From assembly GCA_030652805.1 (NCBI GenBank), contig JAUSPT010000073.1, forward strand, positions 1-21,557: DNA of 21,557 nucleotides, given 5' to 3'. The notes under the pieces were generated by a model. The model saw only the letters and a program-made list of their open reading frames with translations, ran no database searches and was not told where the DNA came from. Of the stretch, positions 10,750 to 21,228 are shown piece by piece (the stretch's first letter is position 1; each line of letters opens with the position of its first letter). Made by a program: the position numbers and the translations under genes. This DNA comes from a bacterium (GTDB lineage Bacteria > JAHJDO01).

Positions 10750-12102
10750 ATGAAAAAAATAGAGCATCAGAAAAATGAATTTAAAGAAAGTTGGCATGAT
10801 AGCAATCTAAAAACTATATGTGCTTTTGCTAATACTGAGGGCGGAAATTTATATATCGGGATTAAGGATAATGGAGACATAAAGAAACTTAAGAATCTCA
10901 AAAAACTTATGGAAGATATTCCTAATAAAACAAGAGACATTCTTGGCATTACTCCAAAAATAAAGCTGGAGCAGAAAAAAGAGAATAAAATCATAAAAAT
11001 TGAGATTGACTATTCCTCTGCCCCAATTTCTTATCATGGGAGTTTTTATGTTAGAAGCGGAAGCACAACAACCGAATTAAAAGGGCATGAACTATCAGAT
11101 TTTTTAATAGCTAAATCAGGACAGGCATGGGATTCTTTTATAGAAGAAAAGAGTAGTATTGTCGATATTGATCTCCATACGATAGAAAAATTTAAAAAGC
11201 TCTCATTAAAAAGAGTTCCTTTTATAGCAGACGAAAAAGATCCTGAAGTTATTTTGGAAAAATTAAATCTGATTGAAAAAGGGAAATTAAAAAGAGCGGC
11301 GATTCTTCTTTTTGGCAATAATCCTAAGAAATTTTACACAACTGCCTATATTAAAATGGGCAAATTTATAACAGACACAGATGTTATAAGTACAGACGAA
11401 ATTGTAGGAAATCTTTTTCAGCAGATAGAGAAAACAATAGAACTTTTAAGGACAAAATACTTGATTTCCAATATAACCTATGAAGGAATATACAGAAAAG
11501 ATACCTTAGAATATCCTGAAGACGCTTTACGTGAGGCAGTGATCAATACAGTTGTCCACCGCAATTATATTGGGGCACATACTCAGCTAAAAGTATATCC
11601 CGACAGATTAAATTTATGGAATATAGGAAAATTGCCAAAGGATATACAAATAGAAGATTTAAAAAAGCCGCATTCATCTCGTCCAAGAAATGAATTAATG
11701 GCAGATATATTCTTTAAAGCAGGTTTAATAGAGGCTTGGGGAAGAGGAACTATAAAAATAATAGATAATTGCAAAAGAGCAGGATTGCCTGAACCTGAAT
11801 TCATGGAAGAGTTTGGAGGTTTTTCAATAACATTTTCCAAGACCAAAGCAATAAAAAAATTTACTGCAACTACCCAGAAAACTACCCAGAAAACTACCCA
11901 GAAAACTACCCAGAAAATATTAGAGTTAATTAAGAAAAACTCGCATATTACAAGAAAAGAAATGGCCAAAGCTATTGGCATCAGTGAAGACGGAATTAAG
12001 TTTAATCTCAATAAACTAAAGAAAAAGGGATTATTAAAAAGAGTAGGTTCGGATAAAGGTGGATACTGGAAAGCAATAGATATTGGAAGGATTGGAAGAT
12101 AA
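10750..12102 (+). CDS. Schlafen-AlbA_2 / HATPase_c_4 putative transcriptional regulator (COG2865 type)
   Basis: A 450-residue protein. An AlbA_2 (Schlafen-like) domain spans about 5-120 (NEFKES, then AFANTEGGNLYIGIKDNG, FYVRSGSTTTEL). A GHKL ATPase-like domain lies at about 250-345, with an N-box region EAVINTVVHRNY near 263, and LIEAWGRGTIKI near 326. A (TTQK)4 linker at 374-389 leads to a C-terminal winged helix (about 390-440). The family is widespread among mobile and accessory DNA and is usually called a putative transcriptional regulator or RecG-like; its function is poorly known. It starts 2 bp after the murB stop, without a strong ribosome binding site, and interrupts the usual murB-ddl order. 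Confidence 0.85.
   Translation: MKKIEHQKNEFKESWHDSNLKTICAFANTEGGNLYIGIKDNGDIKKLKNLKKLMEDIPNKTRDILGITPKIKLEQKKENKIIKIEIDYSSAPISYHGSFYVRSGSTTTELKGHELSDFLIAKSGQAWDSFIEEKSSIVDIDLHTIEKFKKLSLKRVPFIADEKDPEVILEKLNLIEKGKLKRAAILLFGNNPKKFYTTAYIKMGKFITDTDVISTDEIVGNLFQQIEKTIELLRTKYLISNITYEGIYRKDTLEYPEDALREAVINTVVHRNYIGAHTQLKVYPDRLNLWNIGKLPKDIQIEDLKKPHSSRPRNELMADIFFKAGLIEAWGRGTIKIIDNCKRAGLPEPEFMEEFGGFSITFSKTKAIKKFTATTQKTTQKTTQKTTQKILELIKKNSHITRKEMAKAIGISEDGIKFNLNKLKKKGLLKRVGSDKGGYWKAIDIGRIGR
11869..11916 (+). repeat. 12-bp tandem repeat encoding (TTQK)4
   Basis: Four perfect copies of ACTACCCAGAAA. The unit is a multiple of three, so copy changes alter only the length of the linker between the ATPase-like domain and the winged helix. 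The perfect DNA identity between units suggests recent expansion or ongoing slippage. Confidence 0.97.
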
Positions 12103-12130
12103 AAATTAAAATATTGAAAGAATGATGAAA

Positions 12131-12397
12131 TTATTTGAGAATAAAAGTTTCATCGGATGGATCAAAATCATCATAAGGAAAATGAATTTGGATTTTACCA
12201 TTTTTATAAATACTATAAGCAGGATGTTTATCGGTAGCATAAACATATTTTGTCCCAGTAATACGATTAATTCGAATGTATTCGCCTTCTTTTCTTTCAA
12301 AACGGAATAAAGGATTAAAAATGAGCCAAATTAAAGAAAGTAATATTATGCAGATAACCACTTTATGTCTTTTTAACCATTTCATAAATTTACCCAT
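12131..12397 (-). CDS. Small single-pass membrane protein, antisense to the operon
   Basis: An 88-residue protein starting MGKFMKWLKRHK, with a basic N-terminus, a hydrophobic helix (about 13-32: VVICIILLSLIWLIF) and a polar tail containing EYIRINRITGTKYVYAT and an acidic C-terminus. This composition looks like a true protein: N-in, with the tail outside the membrane. The frame can be extended to 12433 (100 aa), but a promoter-like sequence overlaps that extension, and ATG 12385 (84 aa) is another option. I recognise no family. It lies between the AlbA_2 regulator and the metalloprotease, on the opposite strand to every neighbour from 5207 to 21557. Confidence 0.6.
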   Translation of the reverse strand: MGKFMKWLKRHKVVICIILLSLIWLIFNPLFRFERKEGEYIRINRITGTKYVYATDKHPAYSIYKNGKIQIHFPYDDFDPSDETFILK

Positions 12398-12403
12398 ACG
12401 CAA

Positions 12404-12434
12404 ACAATACCATAACCAGAAAAGACCTGTCAAA
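12404..12434 (-). promoter_or_regulatory. Putative promoter of the small antisense gene
   Basis: On the minus strand, a perfect TTGACA (12434-12429) is followed after 19 bp by TATTGT (12409-12404), preceded by a TGG extended -10. The spacer is longer than ideal. Transcription would begin near 12397, at the chosen ATG. The -35 box overlaps the ATG of the divergent metalloprotease gene. Confidence 0.4.
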
Positions 12435-12871
12435 TGAGTTATTATAAAATTGATAAAGACTTATTTGATAAAATCACAGAGCACATCAATGAAAAACTTG
12501 ACGTCTCAATTGATTTTTTAGAATGTCTTAAGTTGGGTAATGCAAAATATTTTCCTCCTGACAAGGATGATGAAACAGGAATAATTGTTGTAGCTTGCAG
12601 AGAAAATAACAATAGGAATAGGAATTTTGATAACGAATTGGCATTATTGCTGCATGAAGTTGGGCATTTCCTCCAGTATAAAGAAAAAGATGACAAAACT
12701 GACTTGGAGAAAGAGGAAAATGCATGGGAAAGAGGATGGAAATATATGTTGAAAATTAAGAGAGAAAAAGAGATGCATATAGATATTGGTTTGTTTAAAA
12801 ATAAATATGAAGAAGTAAAGAAATTTTGTTTAGAGTCTTATAAAAAGAAATATTCAACACATGAAAAATAG
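12434..12871 (+). CDS. Small zinc-metallopeptidase-like protein (HExxH)
   Basis: A 145-residue protein with a zincin helix ELALLLHEVGHFLQY: His74, Glu75 and His78 are the expected zinc ligands and base. A downstream acidic helix EENAWERGWKYM (about 94-105) could supply the third ligand (Glu95), as in ImmA/IrrE-type peptidases. There is no signal peptide, so it is probably cytoplasmic. ImmA-like proteins cleave repressors and often accompany mobile elements or toxin systems, but the family here is inferred from the motif only. It overlaps ddl by 11 bp and so is probably co-transcribed with it. No clear ribosome binding site is seen. Confidence 0.7.
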   Translation: MSYYKIDKDLFDKITEHINEKLDVSIDFLECLKLGNAKYFPPDKDDETGIIVVACRENNNRNRNFDNELALLLHEVGHFLQYKEKDDKTDLEKEENAWERGWKYMLKIKREKEMHIDIGLFKNKYEEVKKFCLESYKKKYSTHEK

Positions 12872-14623: not shown

Positions 14624-15838
14624 ATGCGAACTCGAAAAGACATTGTAACAGCACTGGATATAGGAACCTCTAAAATATGCGCCATGGTTGGCAAATTGGA
14701 TAAAGAGAATAGTATAGAAATTATAGGAATAGGAACTGTTCCTACTAGAGGCCTGAAAAAAGGACTTATTGTTAATATTGATATTGTGACCGATGATATC
14801 AAGGAAGCTCTTAGAGAGGCAGAAAAGACATCGGAATTAGAAATTCCATCTGTATTCATTGGAATCGGAGGCGGACATATTAAAACAGTTAACAGTAAAG
14901 GAAGTGTTCCAGTTAGAAGAGAAGATAGAGAGATAACAATCGAAGATACTCGGAACGTGATAGAAACAGCTAGAGCAATTGCTTTGCCGGAAGGGAGGGA
15001 GATTATTCAAGTTCTGCCTCAAGACTTCATTATAGATGGACAGGCAGAGATTAAGGATCCAATCGGCATGAACGGTGTAAAACTTGAAATAATGACCCAT
15101 ATTGTTACTGGAATGGTAACACATACACAGAATTTCATAAAAAGTGTTAATCAGGCTGGGTTTAAGATAGAAGATATTGTATTTAATCTATTAGCCTCTT
15201 CTGAATCAGTACTATCGCAGAGTGAAAAAGAGCTTGGCGTTTTATTGATTGAAATGGGAGCTGGCACAACGAATTTTGTTATTTTTGAAAAAGATAGCTT
15301 GAAGTACTCTCAGGTGCTAGCAATAGGCGGTAATCATATAACAAATGACATAGCTATAGGTCTTCATATTTCTACACAGGAAGCGGAGAAAATAAAGAAA
15401 AAATATGGCGTTGGATTAGATATGGAAACCAATACTAATAATCAGGAGAATTCTGATCATTTCTCCATATATCAGCTTTCAGAGATTGTTCAACCAAGGA
15501 TTGCAGAAACTGTCCGGATCGTAAAGGAAGAGATAGAAAGAGCGGACTTCGTAAATATAATTGCCTCTGGAGTAGTTCTCACAGGTGGCAGTTCTTTACT
15601 TAAAGGAATGTCCTCAACCGTAAGAGATATATTTAATCTGCCAACAAGAATAGGTACGCCAAACCTTGCATACCAGCTTGGAGACATACCTGATAAACCA
15701 AGCTATTCAACGTGTATTGGTTTATTACAATATGGCTCTGACTTCAGGAAATTTGGAGGAACATCAAAATTTGAAAATAAAAATCTTATGGGTAGAATGA
15801 CAGGAAGTGTCAAGAAGATATTTGGAGATTTTTTTTGA
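14624..15838 (+). CDS. ftsA: Cell division protein FtsA
   Basis: A 404-residue actin-fold ATPase that tethers FtsZ filaments to the membrane. It shows VTALDIGTSKICAMVG at the N-terminus, the FtsA-specific 1C domain, LIEMGAGTTNFVIF (phosphate 2), VLTGGSSLLKG (adenosine motif), and a C-terminal amphipathic helix MGRMTGSVKKIFGDFF that should insert in the membrane. Length is normal. It is the last recognisable gene of the division cluster; ftsZ does not follow it in this window. Confidence 0.95.
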   Translation: MRTRKDIVTALDIGTSKICAMVGKLDKENSIEIIGIGTVPTRGLKKGLIVNIDIVTDDIKEALREAEKTSELEIPSVFIGIGGGHIKTVNSKGSVPVRREDREITIEDTRNVIETARAIALPEGREIIQVLPQDFIIDGQAEIKDPIGMNGVKLEIMTHIVTGMVTHTQNFIKSVNQAGFKIEDIVFNLLASSESVLSQSEKELGVLLIEMGAGTTNFVIFEKDSLKYSQVLAIGGNHITNDIAIGLHISTQEAEKIKKKYGVGLDMETNTNNQENSDHFSIYQLSEIVQPRIAETVRIVKEEIERADFVNIIASGVVLTGGSSLLKGMSSTVRDIFNLPTRIGTPNLAYQLGDIPDKPSYSTCIGLLQYGSDFRKFGGTSKFENKNLMGRMTGSVKKIFGDFF

Positions 15839-16056
15839 GAGAATTAATATAAAAGTGGATGTTCAATGATTAATGTTATATTTCATGTCGCTAATACCAA
15901 AGTTGCCTGCAAGGCTAAAAAAGAAAGAGGCTGTTGAAAACGAAACATAAATTAAATAAAATAATGACAAAATTGACTGACTTAGAAGATTTTATTTTAC
16001 CCCGACCCGCTTTTGCCTTTCGGGACAATTTAGGAAGACAACCCACATTTCACACA

Positions 16057-16099
16057 TTTGCAAGTCGCACGAGCCATTCTGCAAATCAAAACTTGCAAA
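16057..16099. repeat. 9-bp perfect inverted repeat with 25-base loop
   Basis: TTTGCAAGT (16057-16065) pairs perfectly with ACTTGCAAA (16091-16099). Outer ACAC and GTGT can extend the stem across a small internal loop. It lies just upstream of the helicase gene and could be an RNA leader structure, an operator or a recombination end. Confidence 0.7.
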
Positions 16100-16109
16100 A
16101 AAGTGTAAT

Positions 16110-16125
16110 TTTTGCCAACGCAAAA
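16110..16125 (+). promoter_or_regulatory. Hairpin abutting the helicase ribosome binding site
   Basis: TTTTGC and GCAAAA form a 6-bp stem with a CAAC loop, ending one base before the AGGA (16127-16130) that serves the helicase gene start at 16138. It may modulate translation start; a real effect is inferred only. Confidence 0.4.
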
Positions 16126-16137
16126 TAGGATATGGTT

Positions 16138-19100
16138 ATGAAAGATAAATACCTTCAAATATTCAGATATCTTCTTGAATTTTCGAAAATCAGAAGTAAA
16201 GCAGTTAGAAATATTGAAAATGCAAAAACAAACTATATTGATATTCTTTGGATGTCTGATTTGCCTGAGAATGAACTAATCGAATGCATTGTTAATGAAA
16301 ATTTTTCAACTGATTCTGATTTTTGGTTAAAGATCTCTAAACCAAAAGAACCAGAAAAACTGAAATTCCCAAGCCCTCCACAAAAATTAAAGGATTGGAT
16401 AAAAAGCGATTCATTATTAAACAAAAATGAATTCCCCGTTCTGTTAACTGAAATTGCTGATGAAAATGGTAAAACAAAACACTTAGATGATAACCACCAA
16501 ATAAAATTGCTTTTTGATAATTATTGCGAAAACAAATGGTTTTCTGATTCAGATGTATTTTGGAAGAATTATGAAATTTATGAAAAGGAATTTGCTGCTT
16601 ATGAAAAAATAAATGCTATTTACAAACAGCTATTCTCAATTTATAACAAATCGCAACAGTTTGGCGAAGAATATGAATTAATTATGGGGGTGGGATTAAT
16701 CCATTTCAGGGAAAATGAAAACACTCCTCTTGTGTGTCGGCATATAATTACATCAAAAGCTGAAATCAATTTTGAATACTCACAGAAAGATTCAAGACTT
16801 ATAGTAAAACAAAGTATATCTGATGGATTACAAATAGAAACAGATGCCATAATCGACCTTTTTGAACAATTTGATTCTAACGATATTCTTGAAGCAGAAA
16901 AGAAATCTATTGAACTGATTAAGGAAAAAGAACTTGTAAATCCATTTGATGATGATATTCATGATGTGCTCCAATTACTTGCAGAAAGAATTAAACCAGG
17001 TGATGGTAATTACAAAGATGATTTGGGAAGAGCAAAAGATGTTCCTTCAAAAGAAACTATATTTTTCTCACCAGCATTAATTTTAAGAAAAAGAAATACA
17101 AGGAGTTACACAGCTCTCTATGAAAAAATTATTTCAGACATTGAAAATGAAGATGAAATAAAAATACCAATATTAGATGATTTAATTGAACTGAAAAATA
17201 CAGATTCAAATTCTTCTGTTTCCAATACAAATAACGCTGAGTTAAATGAAACAGAAACCATCTATTTTCCCAAAAAATATAATGACGAACAAATTGCAAT
17301 TATCAATAAAGCAAGGTGCAATAATAAAGTACTTGTTCAAGGACCTCCAGGTACAGGAAAGTCTCATACAATTGCAAATTTAATTTGTCATTTGTTAGCC
17401 AACGGGAAAAAGGTACTTGTAACTGCTTATACAAAACGCGCATTAGAAGTGCTAAAAGACAAACTTCCTGACGATTTTAAAAACCTAACCGTTAATTTAT
17501 TAAGTGGAGATTCTTCTTCAATTAATGATTTGGAAGCCAGTGTAAACACGATAAATGATGAACTTTCAAATACTGATATTGAATCCTTGAAAACTAAAAT
17601 TGAGAAACTGGAATCGGAATTATCATCTCTAAAAGAAAATAGAGCAAAGAACACTAATGAATTACTAAAAATAAAAGAAAATTCTTCAAGAAGGTTTGAA
17701 ATAAACTCAGCATATTCTGGAACTTTAACTGAAATTACAGAAAAACTGGAAAAAGAAAAAGAAAAACATGAATGGTATAAAGATGATTTTGATGATATTA
17801 ATAATAATGAAATTATTCATCATGTAGAAAAATATTCTTTCTTGTTAAATCATTACTCTAATATTGATTGTTCTATTTTTGATTACAAACTTCCAGACAA
17901 GCAAAAGCTTTTTGAAATTAGTGATTTTCGAAAATTTCAACTACTAGATCTTAAGGCAAATGGTAGTGATGTTTCCAAAGAAACCATTGCATCTGTTAAA
18001 AGTATTGATTTCGATTTATTGCAAGTCTATTTAGCTGAACTAAAAATAGTTTTTGAAAAGATTGATATAAATCCACATCCATTTAAAAAAGAAATAATTA
18101 ATGACATTTTAAACTATCAAAAACGAAAATGGCAGAATAAAATAGATTGTAGTAAAACTGTGCTTTCTGATCTCGAAAAGTATAATTTAAAACTAATTGA
18201 CCGTAATGTTGAAATAAAATATCCAAAGGACAAGTCTTTAATAACTTTAAAAAATGATGCGAAAGTACTTCTTGGCTTTTTAGATGCAGGAAGCTCACTT
18301 TCAGGAATTGGCTTTAAATTAAAAAAAGCATTCCTTCCAACAGAGATTAAGGAAAAATTATATTTTCTTGACTTAGTCTTGGTTAATGACAGTCCTTGTA
18401 ATACTAAAGATGAATTCAATTATGTACTTGATGACATTAGAATCAAACAGAATTTTGAAGAAATTAATGATGCTTGGGAAAATGCAGATAAAACATCCAG
18501 ATCATTTAATGATAAATTTGTTTTTTACCAGAAACTGTATAAAGACACCTTAGCTTTATTTGAAAATATTGCATTAGCAGAAGAAAAGATTTCTTCGATT
18601 AAATCCGTTTCAAATATATTTATTGACAGTTTCAATATAGCGAATTTGAATCAAATTATTAAAAATGTTTCGGATTCTCTTGTATTGAATCAGATAGCAG
18701 AATTTGAGCAAAAAAGAAACCAAATAATCAGATATTTATCAGAAGATAACTTGCATTCTATCACATCTGAAATAGCAAAAGCATTTATGGCTTTAGATAT
18801 AGAATCGTATAAAATTCTTTTAAATCGTCTAAAAACACTTCAGAATGATAAGTTGATGTTTGCATCTTTCAAGAATCTTGAAAACGAATTAATGGCTTCT
18901 CTGCCCATATTGATTGAGGAAATTAATAATAATGTCTCTTTTACTCAAAGTAATATTAACTTATTAGAAAATGCCATTTCATTTAAGCATGCCAATTTTG
19001 AAACAAATAGACTTCTTAGCGAAGACTATGAAAAAAAATTAATAGAGCTGTTAAAATCATACGATTCAAAAGAAGAAAGCTTAATAGCTCAAATTGCTGC

Positions 19101-21228
19101 AAATAAATCATGGGTTTTTGTGTTAGAGAACTTACAAAAGAACAGATCTCTTAGACAGCATTTGCAAGCATGGGTTCAAGCAGTTAAAAAAATAGGGAAA
19201 ACTGGCAGAGGAAAACGAGCATTAAAATTCAGAAAGATTGCTCAAGAAGAAATGGAGTACTGTAAAACTTCAATTCCTTGCTGGATTATGCCCCTCTATA
19301 AAGTAACGGAAACAATACAACCCGAACAAGGGATTTATGATTATGTTATAACTGATGAAGCAAGCCAACTTGGACCAGATGCAATTTTCCTTCTGTATAT
19401 TTCAAAGAATATTATTATCGTTGGTGATGACAAACAAACATCTCCAGAATATATAGGTGTTGATGCAAACACAATGGTCCCATTTATTAATAAGCACTTG
19501 CAGGGAATTCCATTTAAAGATTTTTATGGAACTGAAACTAGCTTTTTTGACGTTGCCAAAATATTTTGTGAAGGAATCACAGTATTAAGAGAGCATTTTC
19601 GCTGTATGCCTGAAATCATTGAGTTTTCAAATAAGTTATTCTATGCTCCTGATGGTAAAGGTCTTTATCCTTTAAAACAGTATTCTGAAAATAGGCTAGA
19701 ACCTTTAATGCATGTGTATTGTCAAAATGGTTATATAGAAGGAAGCAGGCAGTCAATTCGCAATGAACCCGAAGCTGTGACTTTAGTTAATAAGATTGCA
19801 GAAATTGTTAAAGATGATAGATATTTGAAAAAGACTATCGGAGTTATTTGCTTACAAGGCAATGCTCAGAGTGCTTTAATAGAGAGTTTACTTGTTAAAG
19901 AGATTGGTGAAAAGGAATTTAAAGAGCGGAAAATTATTTGTGGTAACTCTGCAAGTTTCCAGGGTGACGAAAGAGACATAATTTTCTTAAGTTTAGTTAC
20001 AGCACAGAACCATAATAGAAGTGCTTTAGCACGTCCAGAAGATGAAAAACGTTTTAATGTTGCAGCCAGTCGCGCAGTTGAACAAATGTGGCTTTTCCAT
20101 TCAATATTGCTTGCTGATTTAAGTAACACTAACGACTTAAGATATAAACTTCTTAACCATTTTATTAATTATCGCCCACCAACTCCACCTGCTTCTGATC
20201 CTATCGAACGCACTTTGGGCAATCAACCGGAACCTTTTGATAGTTGGTTTGAAGTTGATATTTATAACGATATAGTTGCTAAAGGATATAGTGTCATACC
20301 CCAATACGAAGTTGCGAAAGGTAAATATCGTATTGACTTAGTCGCAATATTCCATGATGGAACCAAATTAGCGATTGAATGTGATGGGGACAAATGGCAT
20401 GGAGCAGACCAATATCAAAATGATTTAATGCGTCAGAAAGTTTTAGAACGTTGCGGATGGCAATTTTTTAGAATCAGAGGTGGCGACTATTATTCAAATA
20501 GAGAAAAAGCTCTTGTTCCATTATGGGAAATATTCGATAAAAAACCAATAAAGGATACTGAACCAATTGAAGAAAAAGATAAAAATTTAGAAATTGATGA
20601 TTCAAATATTGGAGATAACATTAAAAAAGAATTTGACGATAATTCAGAACTCACAGAAGATGTTATTAATAATATAAAAACATCAGATTTAGACTCTCTA
20701 TTTAATCAACGTGAGTTTTTAGTATTTACAGATCAATTTAATGTATATAAAAATCTGAATAAGGGTTTTATCAGTTTGCAACAAGTGACTTCAAACATTG
20801 AATTTAAAGAAGACGAAAAAATTATTTACATCACTAGTACAACCGATTATTCTGGATATATGTTGTTTGGATTTGAGAACGGGAAAGTAGCTAAAATATA
20901 CATGCAAAGCTACAGAACACTTACTAAGAGAAAAAGACTAAAAAATGCTTATAATAGCAATTCAAAACTTGTATTTATTGATTATACTGAAACAGACATT
21001 CATTTAGCAGTAATTAGTTCCATTTATAAAGTAATTGTTTTTAATACGAATCAAATCAACCCTAAAGAAAGTAAAGGTGCCCAGGGTAATCAGGTTATTA
21101 AATCAAAGAATAATAGTGTAATGAGAGAAATAAAAAAAACTAATCAAGTAACTTTTGAAAATATTGAATACTATAATAAAAATATTCCTGCTGCGGGAAA
21201 TTATTTATTGCCTCAAGATGATTTTTAA
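16138..21228 (+). CDS. Giant SF1 helicase - Vsr/DUF559-like nuclease fusion, putative defence protein
   Basis: A protein of about 1,696 residues; ATG 16138 is chosen over ATG 16132 because AGGA lies 7 bp upstream of it. Residues 1-390 are of unknown fold. The SF1 UPF1/DNA2-like helicase has motif I GPPGTGKSHT (402-411), Ia TAYTKRA, a long insertion (about 450-1060) with a coiled coil near 465-506, motif II DEAS (1073-1076), LREHFRC, motif V QGDERD (about 1275-1280) and motif VI NVAASRA with Arg1312. A PD-(D/E)xK nuclease like DUF559/Vsr follows (about 1366-1465: D1400, E1414-C-D1416-G). The C-terminus (about 1564-1661) looks like gyrase-pinwheel blades. Large helicase-Vsr fusions such as Hhe (DUF4011-helicase-Vsr) are antiphage proteins; this one resembles that group, but I see no clear DUF4011. 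The gene stands alone, is more A+T-rich to the eye than the division genes, and was probably acquired. Confidence 0.85.
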   Translation: MKDKYLQIFRYLLEFSKIRSKAVRNIENAKTNYIDILWMSDLPENELIECIVNENFSTDSDFWLKISKPKEPEKLKFPSPPQKLKDWIKSDSLLNKNEFPVLLTEIADENGKTKHLDDNHQIKLLFDNYCENKWFSDSDVFWKNYEIYEKEFAAYEKINAIYKQLFSIYNKSQQFGEEYELIMGVGLIHFRENENTPLVCRHIITSKAEINFEYSQKDSRLIVKQSISDGLQIETDAIIDLFEQFDSNDILEAEKKSIELIKEKELVNPFDDDIHDVLQLLAERIKPGDGNYKDDLGRAKDVPSKETIFFSPALILRKRNTRSYTALYEKIISDIENEDEIKIPILDDLIELKNTDSNSSVSNTNNAELNETETIYFPKKYNDEQIAIINKARCNNKVLVQGPPGTGKSHTIANLICHLLANGKKVLVTAYTKRALEVLKDKLPDDFKNLTVNLLSGDSSSINDLEASVNTINDELSNTDIESLKTKIEKLESELSSLKENRAKNTNELLKIKENSSRRFEINSAYSGTLTEITEKLEKEKEKHEWYKDDFDDINNNEIIHHVEKYSFLLNHYSNIDCSIFDYKLPDKQKLFEISDFRKFQLLDLKANGSDVSKETIASVKSIDFDLLQVYLAELKIVFEKIDINPHPFKKEIINDILNYQKRKWQNKIDCSKTVLSDLEKYNLKLIDRNVEIKYPKDKSLITLKNDAKVLLGFLDAGSSLSGIGFKLKKAFLPTEIKEKLYFLDLVLVNDSPCNTKDEFNYVLDDIRIKQNFEEINDAWENADKTSRSFNDKFVFYQKLYKDTLALFENIALAEEKISSIKSVSNIFIDSFNIANLNQIIKNVSDSLVLNQIAEFEQKRNQIIRYLSEDNLHSITSEIAKAFMALDIESYKILLNRLKTLQNDKLMFASFKNLENELMASLPILIEEINNNVSFTQSNINLLENAISFKHANFETNRLLSEDYEKKLIELLKSYDSKEESLIAQIAANKSWVFVLENLQKNRSLRQHLQAWVQAVKKIGKTGRGKRALKFRKIAQEEMEYCKTSIPCWIMPLYKVTETIQPEQGIYDYVITDEASQLGPDAIFLLYISKNIIIVGDDKQTSPEYIGVDANTMVPFINKHLQGIPFKDFYGTETSFFDVAKIFCEGITVLREHFRCMPEIIEFSNKLFYAPDGKGLYPLKQYSENRLEPLMHVYCQNGYIEGSRQSIRNEPEAVTLVNKIAEIVKDDRYLKKTIGVICLQGNAQSALIESLLVKEIGEKEFKERKIICGNSASFQGDERDIIFLSLVTAQNHNRSALARPEDEKRFNVAASRAVEQMWLFHSILLADLSNTNDLRYKLLNHFINYRPPTPPASDPIERTLGNQPEPFDSWFEVDIYNDIVAKGYSVIPQYEVAKGKYRIDLVAIFHDGTKLAIECDGDKWHGADQYQNDLMRQKVLERCGWQFFRIRGGDYYSNREKALVPLWEIFDKKPIKDTEPIEEKDKNLEIDDSNIGDNIKKEFDDNSELTEDVINNIKTSDLDSLFNQREFLVFTDQFNVYKNLNKGFISLQQVTSNIEFKEDEKIIYITSTTDYSGYMLFGFENGKVAKIYMQSYRTLTKRKRLKNAYNSNSKLVFIDYTETDIHLAVISSIYKVIVFNTNQINPKESKGAQGNQVIKSKNNSVMREIKKTNQVTFENIEYYNKNIPAAGNYLLPQDDF

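Follow-up and report, generated by a model that had tools for sequence, protein, structure and literature searches.

The present locus raises the question of what a single giant protein, encoded among the cell division genes of a bacterium of the JAHJDO01 lineage, does, and where the parts that surround its helicase and nuclease domains come from. The window analysed here is the whole stretch of 21,557 nucleotides (contig JAUSPT010000073.1). A first-pass annotation, made from the letters alone, had proposed the gene as a candidate for an undescribed defence system. The main new result of our analysis concerns the C-terminal tail of the protein, which sequence and predicted structure identify as the C-terminal domain (CTD) of a type IIA topoisomerase A subunit.

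The gene and its genomic site

The gene is real and occurs in a single copy in the 2.0 Mb genome assembly, as one gene of the length first proposed. A stop-free open frame extends from 16132 to 21228 on the forward strand, with the gene itself at 16138-21228 (1,696 codons, from the ORF list and translation). The starts of its relatives are equivalent to 16138, giving a product of 1,696 amino acids, and the ATG at 16132 is also compatible. The features are collected in Table 1. The noncoding segment upstream (15839-16131) had no match among the loci compared.

Table 1. Features of the window discussed in the text (positions in the window)
Feature	Position	Strand	Basis or remark
ftsA, left border of the insertion	14624..15838	+	directly abuts ftsZ in two congeners
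Helicase-nuclease-topoisomerase-CTD gene, 1,696 aa	16138..21228	+	ORF, translation; alternative start 16132
N-terminal region, residues 1-380	16138..17277	+	family-wide conservation; structure prediction
RecA-like helicase domain 1, AAA_11 380-543, Walker A 402-409	17275..17766	+	Pfam, motif positions
Stretch between helicase halves, residues about 544-1028, without family	17767..19222	+	gap between Pfam matches
RecA-like helicase domain 2, motifs II-VI, AAA_12 1145-1319	19225..20127	+	Pfam, motifs
REase_MTES_1575 nuclease domain, residues 1371-1464, D1400/E1414/D1416	20248..20529	+	Pfam, 1.4e-26
Acidic linker, residues 1467-1518, pI 4.2	20536..20691	+	identity to relatives with other tails drops here
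Type IIA topoisomerase A-subunit CTD (GyrA/ParC beta-pinwheel), residues 1519-1696, pI 9.2	20692..21225	+	sequence, profile, model
Ribbon-helix-helix-like 84-aa gene, start only, cut by contig end	21464..21557	+	continues on contig C52

The end of the contig overlaps contig C52 over 119 bp with 100% identity. The joined order is ftsA, the helicase gene, a pair formed by the ribbon-helix-helix-like gene and a weakly ParE-like partner (ParE_toxin match of E 0.005, below the cut-off), a conserved gene of ca. 310 aa and then ftsZ. The gene had been described as sitting alone, apparently acquired, beside the division operon. Of this, the acquisition stands, but the joined gene order places the insertion inside the operon, between ftsA and ftsZ and together with further genes. 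A chimeric contig is unlikely: on the left the sequence matches the operon of the congener G002 at 92-95% identity, and on the right it runs into the ftsZ contig through the overlap just given. We could also rule out a housekeeping gene of the division operon, because ftsA and ftsZ are adjacent in two congeners (G002 and G004) and the helicase-nuclease gene is missing from all four, which are the only other genomes of the phylum compared. This absence, the position between ftsA and ftsZ, and a patchy distribution over several phyla plus one archaeon support the view that the gene was acquired horizontally; close full-length relatives were found in only 2 of 395 sampled Bacteroidota genomes. 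A prophage gene was also considered and set aside, the whole protein having neither a relative in viral contigs nor a full-length phage record.

Insertions seem to recur at the ftsA-ftsZ junction within the division operon, since the congener G003 carries different cargo at this same point (contig C125; L070, 318-2626), namely a Schlafen AlbA_2 protein and a DUF5677 protein. Immediately ahead of ftsZ, both G000 (L075, 4684-5622) and G003 (L070, 2814-3608) encode a conserved protein of ca. 265-313 aa that no Pfam family matches; it is absent from that position in G002 and G004. Elsewhere in the window, a Schlafen AlbA_2/HATPase_c_4/winged-helix protein is inserted between murB and ddl (10750-12871) together with a small protein that has a metallopeptidase-like HEVGH motif; the murB-ddl junction is uninterrupted in G002.

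The core, the N-terminal region and the related defence families

The complete SF1 helicase motor read at first pass is borne out by a full set of motifs in the right order (GPPGTGKS at 402-409, DEAS at 1073-1076, VGDDKQTSP at 1095, FQGDERD at 1274 and NVAASRA at 1307) and by Pfam matches to both AAA_11 and AAA_12, the motor being Upf1-like. The three acidic residues then assigned to a Vsr/DUF559-like nuclease were placed exactly, and lie within a Pfam REase_MTES_1575 domain (92.8 bits against a gathering cut-off of 38.2) whose acidic motif is kept by every relative listed. MTES_1575 is a Vsr-fold nuclease, described in a protein that also bears an SF1 helicase (PMC3710099).

The N-terminal region is conserved throughout the family, with invariant L12, E180, G184, G186, P312 and R317, down to ca. 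20% identity. Its predicted structure (pLDDT 84) has a long helix (residues 120-174) and a beta domain. In the PDB, Foldseek gave nothing under E 0.001 and the best VIA Z was 4.2; we have taken these fold matches as noise, and likewise the weak Pfam matches to Rad9 and PriX. This agrees with the region of unknown fold of the first reading, in that the predicted structure has no significant PDB match, although the absence of a match for a predicted fold does not show that the fold is new. DUF4011, which had not been recognised either, gave no Pfam match in the full protein nor in the N-terminal regions of 32 family members, and the first 385 residues matched none of the PDC-S37, ProA or Hhe models.

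PADLOC matched the protein to PDC-S37, a single-gene candidate system (4.7e-62, residues 342-1497 against model positions 254-1366 of 1550), with Hhe at 3e-32. Among the NCBIfam models, ProA (NF058533) matched at 3e-61 and Hhe at 9e-44, but with 207.3 bits against a cut-off of 1500 and 149.3 bits against a cut-off of 2000, respectively, scores that rule out a full-length Hhe or ProA. Scores of the other family members are of a comparably low order (210-257 bits for ProA). What the protein has in common with PDC-S37 and with the anti-phage protein ProA is the helicase-nuclease core. However, the first 253 positions of PDC-S37 are unmatched, the N-terminal regions of the 32 family members have no match to it and no topoisomerase tail is aligned, while in ProA the N-terminal 607 positions are unmatched and the score falls far under the cut-off. 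Hhe (DUF4011-helicase-Vsr) is alike in the second half of the helicase, in the nuclease and in the order of SF1 followed by a Vsr-type domain, but it has DUF4011, which the giant protein lacks, and a different tail. Given the low family scores and an N-terminal region that is unmatched yet conserved, the protein is, as judged from its sequence, a separate branch of the Hhe/ProA/PDC-S37 superfamily. The separation from Hhe that had been suspected at first thus holds, and applies equally to ProA. Our search of the literature found nothing on ProA or PDC-S37.

The C-terminal tail and its exchange

A further C-terminal region, outside the architecture known for such proteins, had been reported. 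It is indeed present, but its nature has changed, to a topoisomerase IIA CTD that is one of several exchangeable tails. By tblastn, residues 1523-1694 match the ends of phage gyrase A subunits, with 42.7% identity to Geobacillus virus E3 (E 3e-34), 37% to Bacillus phages (E about 1e-27) and 33-38% to Lactococcus phages, and all matches in plasmid records were topoisomerase A subunits. Among 398 Bacillota genomes the best non-helicase matches were clostridial topoisomerase A subunits (43-47%, E about 1e-40) in open frames of 727-793 residues, with canonical GyrA genes matching weakly (about 1e-5). A profile of the four tails of this kind (type A) recovered the GyrA CTD structure 1suu (E 5e-4). 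The top 20 Foldseek rows for an AlphaFold2 model built from seven sequences (pLDDT 78) were all GyrA/ParC CTDs, with E down to 8e-9, and in VIA-align 17 topoisomerase entries reached Z of 11.8-15.1, whereas the next, unrelated one had 2.8. The tail is also the only clearly basic part of the protein (pI 9.2, and 9.2-9.9 across type A members), the other parts being acidic.

Fold and sequence are therefore those of the GyrA/ParC CTDs, but these are attached to a topoisomerase and measure ca. 245-320 residues when solved, whereas the tail has ca. 178 aa and is attached to a helicase-nuclease. The same holds for the clostridial and phage A subunits (ca. 715-790 aa), to which the tail is up to 47% identical over its full length and up to a common C-terminus: they keep the topoisomerase core, and the giant protein has the helicase-nuclease core in its place. 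GyrA CTDs wrap DNA, and this wrapping relies on the GyrA-box. A canonical box of the QRRGGKG type was not seen in the sequence of the tail, and DNA wrapping by the tail is uncertain, since it is shorter than the solved CTDs and wrapping by GyrA needs the box. A limited search of the literature gave no description of a defence helicase-nuclease with a topoisomerase CTD joined to it.

Sequence comparison makes it clear that the tail was captured from a topoisomerase. In a tree of 28 CTDs, including the four A tails and seven from large Firmicutes phages, the A tails form one group (support 100/99) that is sister to the seven phage gyrase CTDs (90/91). The phage domains would accordingly be the nearest sister, although a grouping with cellular clostridial enzymes, at p-AU 0.074, stays above rejection. 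No topoisomerase with a CTD of this type was found in a search of 16 genomes of hosts and congeners, so the tail was not copied from an enzyme of the host itself.

For comparison we fetched 47 related loci. The relatives, from Bacteroidota, Bacillota, an archaeon and others, have a common core and differing tails, and some have no tail after the nuclease. Tail A is carried by the window protein, an archaeal Thermoplasmatota MAG, BMS3Bbin03 and Thermincola; tail B is found in Bacteroidota and a few others. The nearest relatives of the core in the window are proteins of Prolixibacteraceae and other Bacteroidales that bear tail B. Identity to these Bacteroidales proteins is ca. 80% over the nuclease but only 16-30% over the tail, where the archaeal protein retains ca. 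66%. The join falls within the acidic, weakly conserved linker. B tails are 56-83% identical to one reference B tail, though forcing their carriers into one clade on the core tree lowers the log-likelihood by 282 and is rejected (p-AU 7.5e-6). Because the tree thus rejects a single origin of tail B in the Bacteroidota, tails have been exchanged between cores as modules.

Tail B may tentatively be a distant relative of the topoisomerase CTD (hhalign P 2.4e-5); its own searches gave no PDB match and no phage match. In several members a GreA/GreB C-terminal domain comes after it (34.1 bits in L017, from the cultured Mariniphaga anaerophila, against a cut-off of 26.9, and 22-25 bits in two others), seen in L017 (8119-9417) and at the C-termini of L005, L006 and L024, which suggests a possible contact with RNA polymerase. 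By eye, further tails on the same core look winged-helix-like, like cysteine-rich zinc fingers, or of other kinds (L022, L015, L032, L033, L039, L040).

Possible roles of the protein

How large helicase-nuclease defence proteins locate foreign DNA is largely an open question, and exchanged tails make it experimentally direct, with a recognisable gyrase domain in one tail and a GreA/GreB C-terminal domain in another, on one chassis. The reading that we prefer, with slightly more belief than doubt, is that of an acquired single-protein enzyme against invaders, in which the core (an SF1 helicase plus an MTES_1575/Vsr-type nuclease) would be the effector and the swappable tail its targeting module. 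From the role of GyrA CTDs in wrapping, the basic pinwheel would bind and bend duplex DNA, perhaps with a preference for topologies such as the crossovers or supercoils that arise in phage DNA during active replication or transcription. It would thereby load the helicase, which, to judge from the families of helicase and nuclease, would translocate until the nuclease cuts.

Defence as the biological role is suggested mainly by kinship with characterised families, with mobility and, weakly, the neighbourhood pointing the same way. We surveyed 131 neighbours of 19 relatives, within four genes, and found type I and IIG restriction enzymes, PD-T4-2 A and B, AbiEi, ShosA, bSEFIR and PDC-M36. As a control we took 121 proteins encoded at other places in some of these genomes, and among them were a type III CRISPR locus and a single IIG enzyme; as the control also included defence genes, the association is only suggestive, supportive and not decisive. 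Among the three other tail A loci (ten neighbours scanned), a restriction gene was near L004 only.

Some neighbours are metabolic, for example the SIS-domain/glutamine-amidotransferase gene beside L018, which would suit an ordinary helicase-nuclease of DNA repair or recombination whose CTD tracks supercoiled or damaged chromosomal DNA. SF1 helicase-nuclease fusions occur among such enzymes too, and Dna2 matches weakly. We consider this unlikely, however, for a gene so rare and patchy, scattered over phyla and absent in the congeners, and whose nearest kin among characterised or candidate families act, or are proposed to act, against phages. A quite unlikely alternative is that the protein restricts modified phage DNA in a type IV-like manner, with an N-terminal region that would read the modification and a tail that would only add affinity; conservation of this region even in members without a tail might indicate that it holds an essential recognition function, but neither Pfam nor the fold searches recognised a modified-base-reader domain in it.

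Very unlikely, in our opinion, is an integrated decoy or docking device, in which the tail mimics a phage gyrase CTD and the helicase-nuclease is recruited or triggered by whatever normally engages gyrase A, be it a phage protein or the phage replication site, a scheme that would fit the phage sisterhood of the four tails and the lack of a host source, but fits poorly with the surviving clostridial grouping, with clostridial enzymes that are in part slightly more similar than the phage ones (up to 47% versus 43%) and with compared phages that infect Firmicutes, while an archaeon and unrelated bacteria are among the hosts. Its extension, that a captured phage-gyrase CTD acts as a homing device and that exchange of tails retargets one chassis to different phage-DNA machinery, is equally improbable, and it is a similarly long shot that the topoisomerase CTD, the CTD-like tail with the GreA/GreB domain, the winged helix and the zinc finger are a series of such retargeted tails.

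Separately from the helicase-nucleases, ca. 14 of the 398 sampled Bacillota genomes have an extra topoisomerase A subunit of ca. 730-790 aa (L088-L101), with a CTD that differs from that of canonical GyrA and is common to phages. According to the note in its record, the gyrase gene of Geobacillus virus E3 (gp69; L077, 1434-5537) has an in-frame stop codon, and peptide sequencing shows a fusion product.
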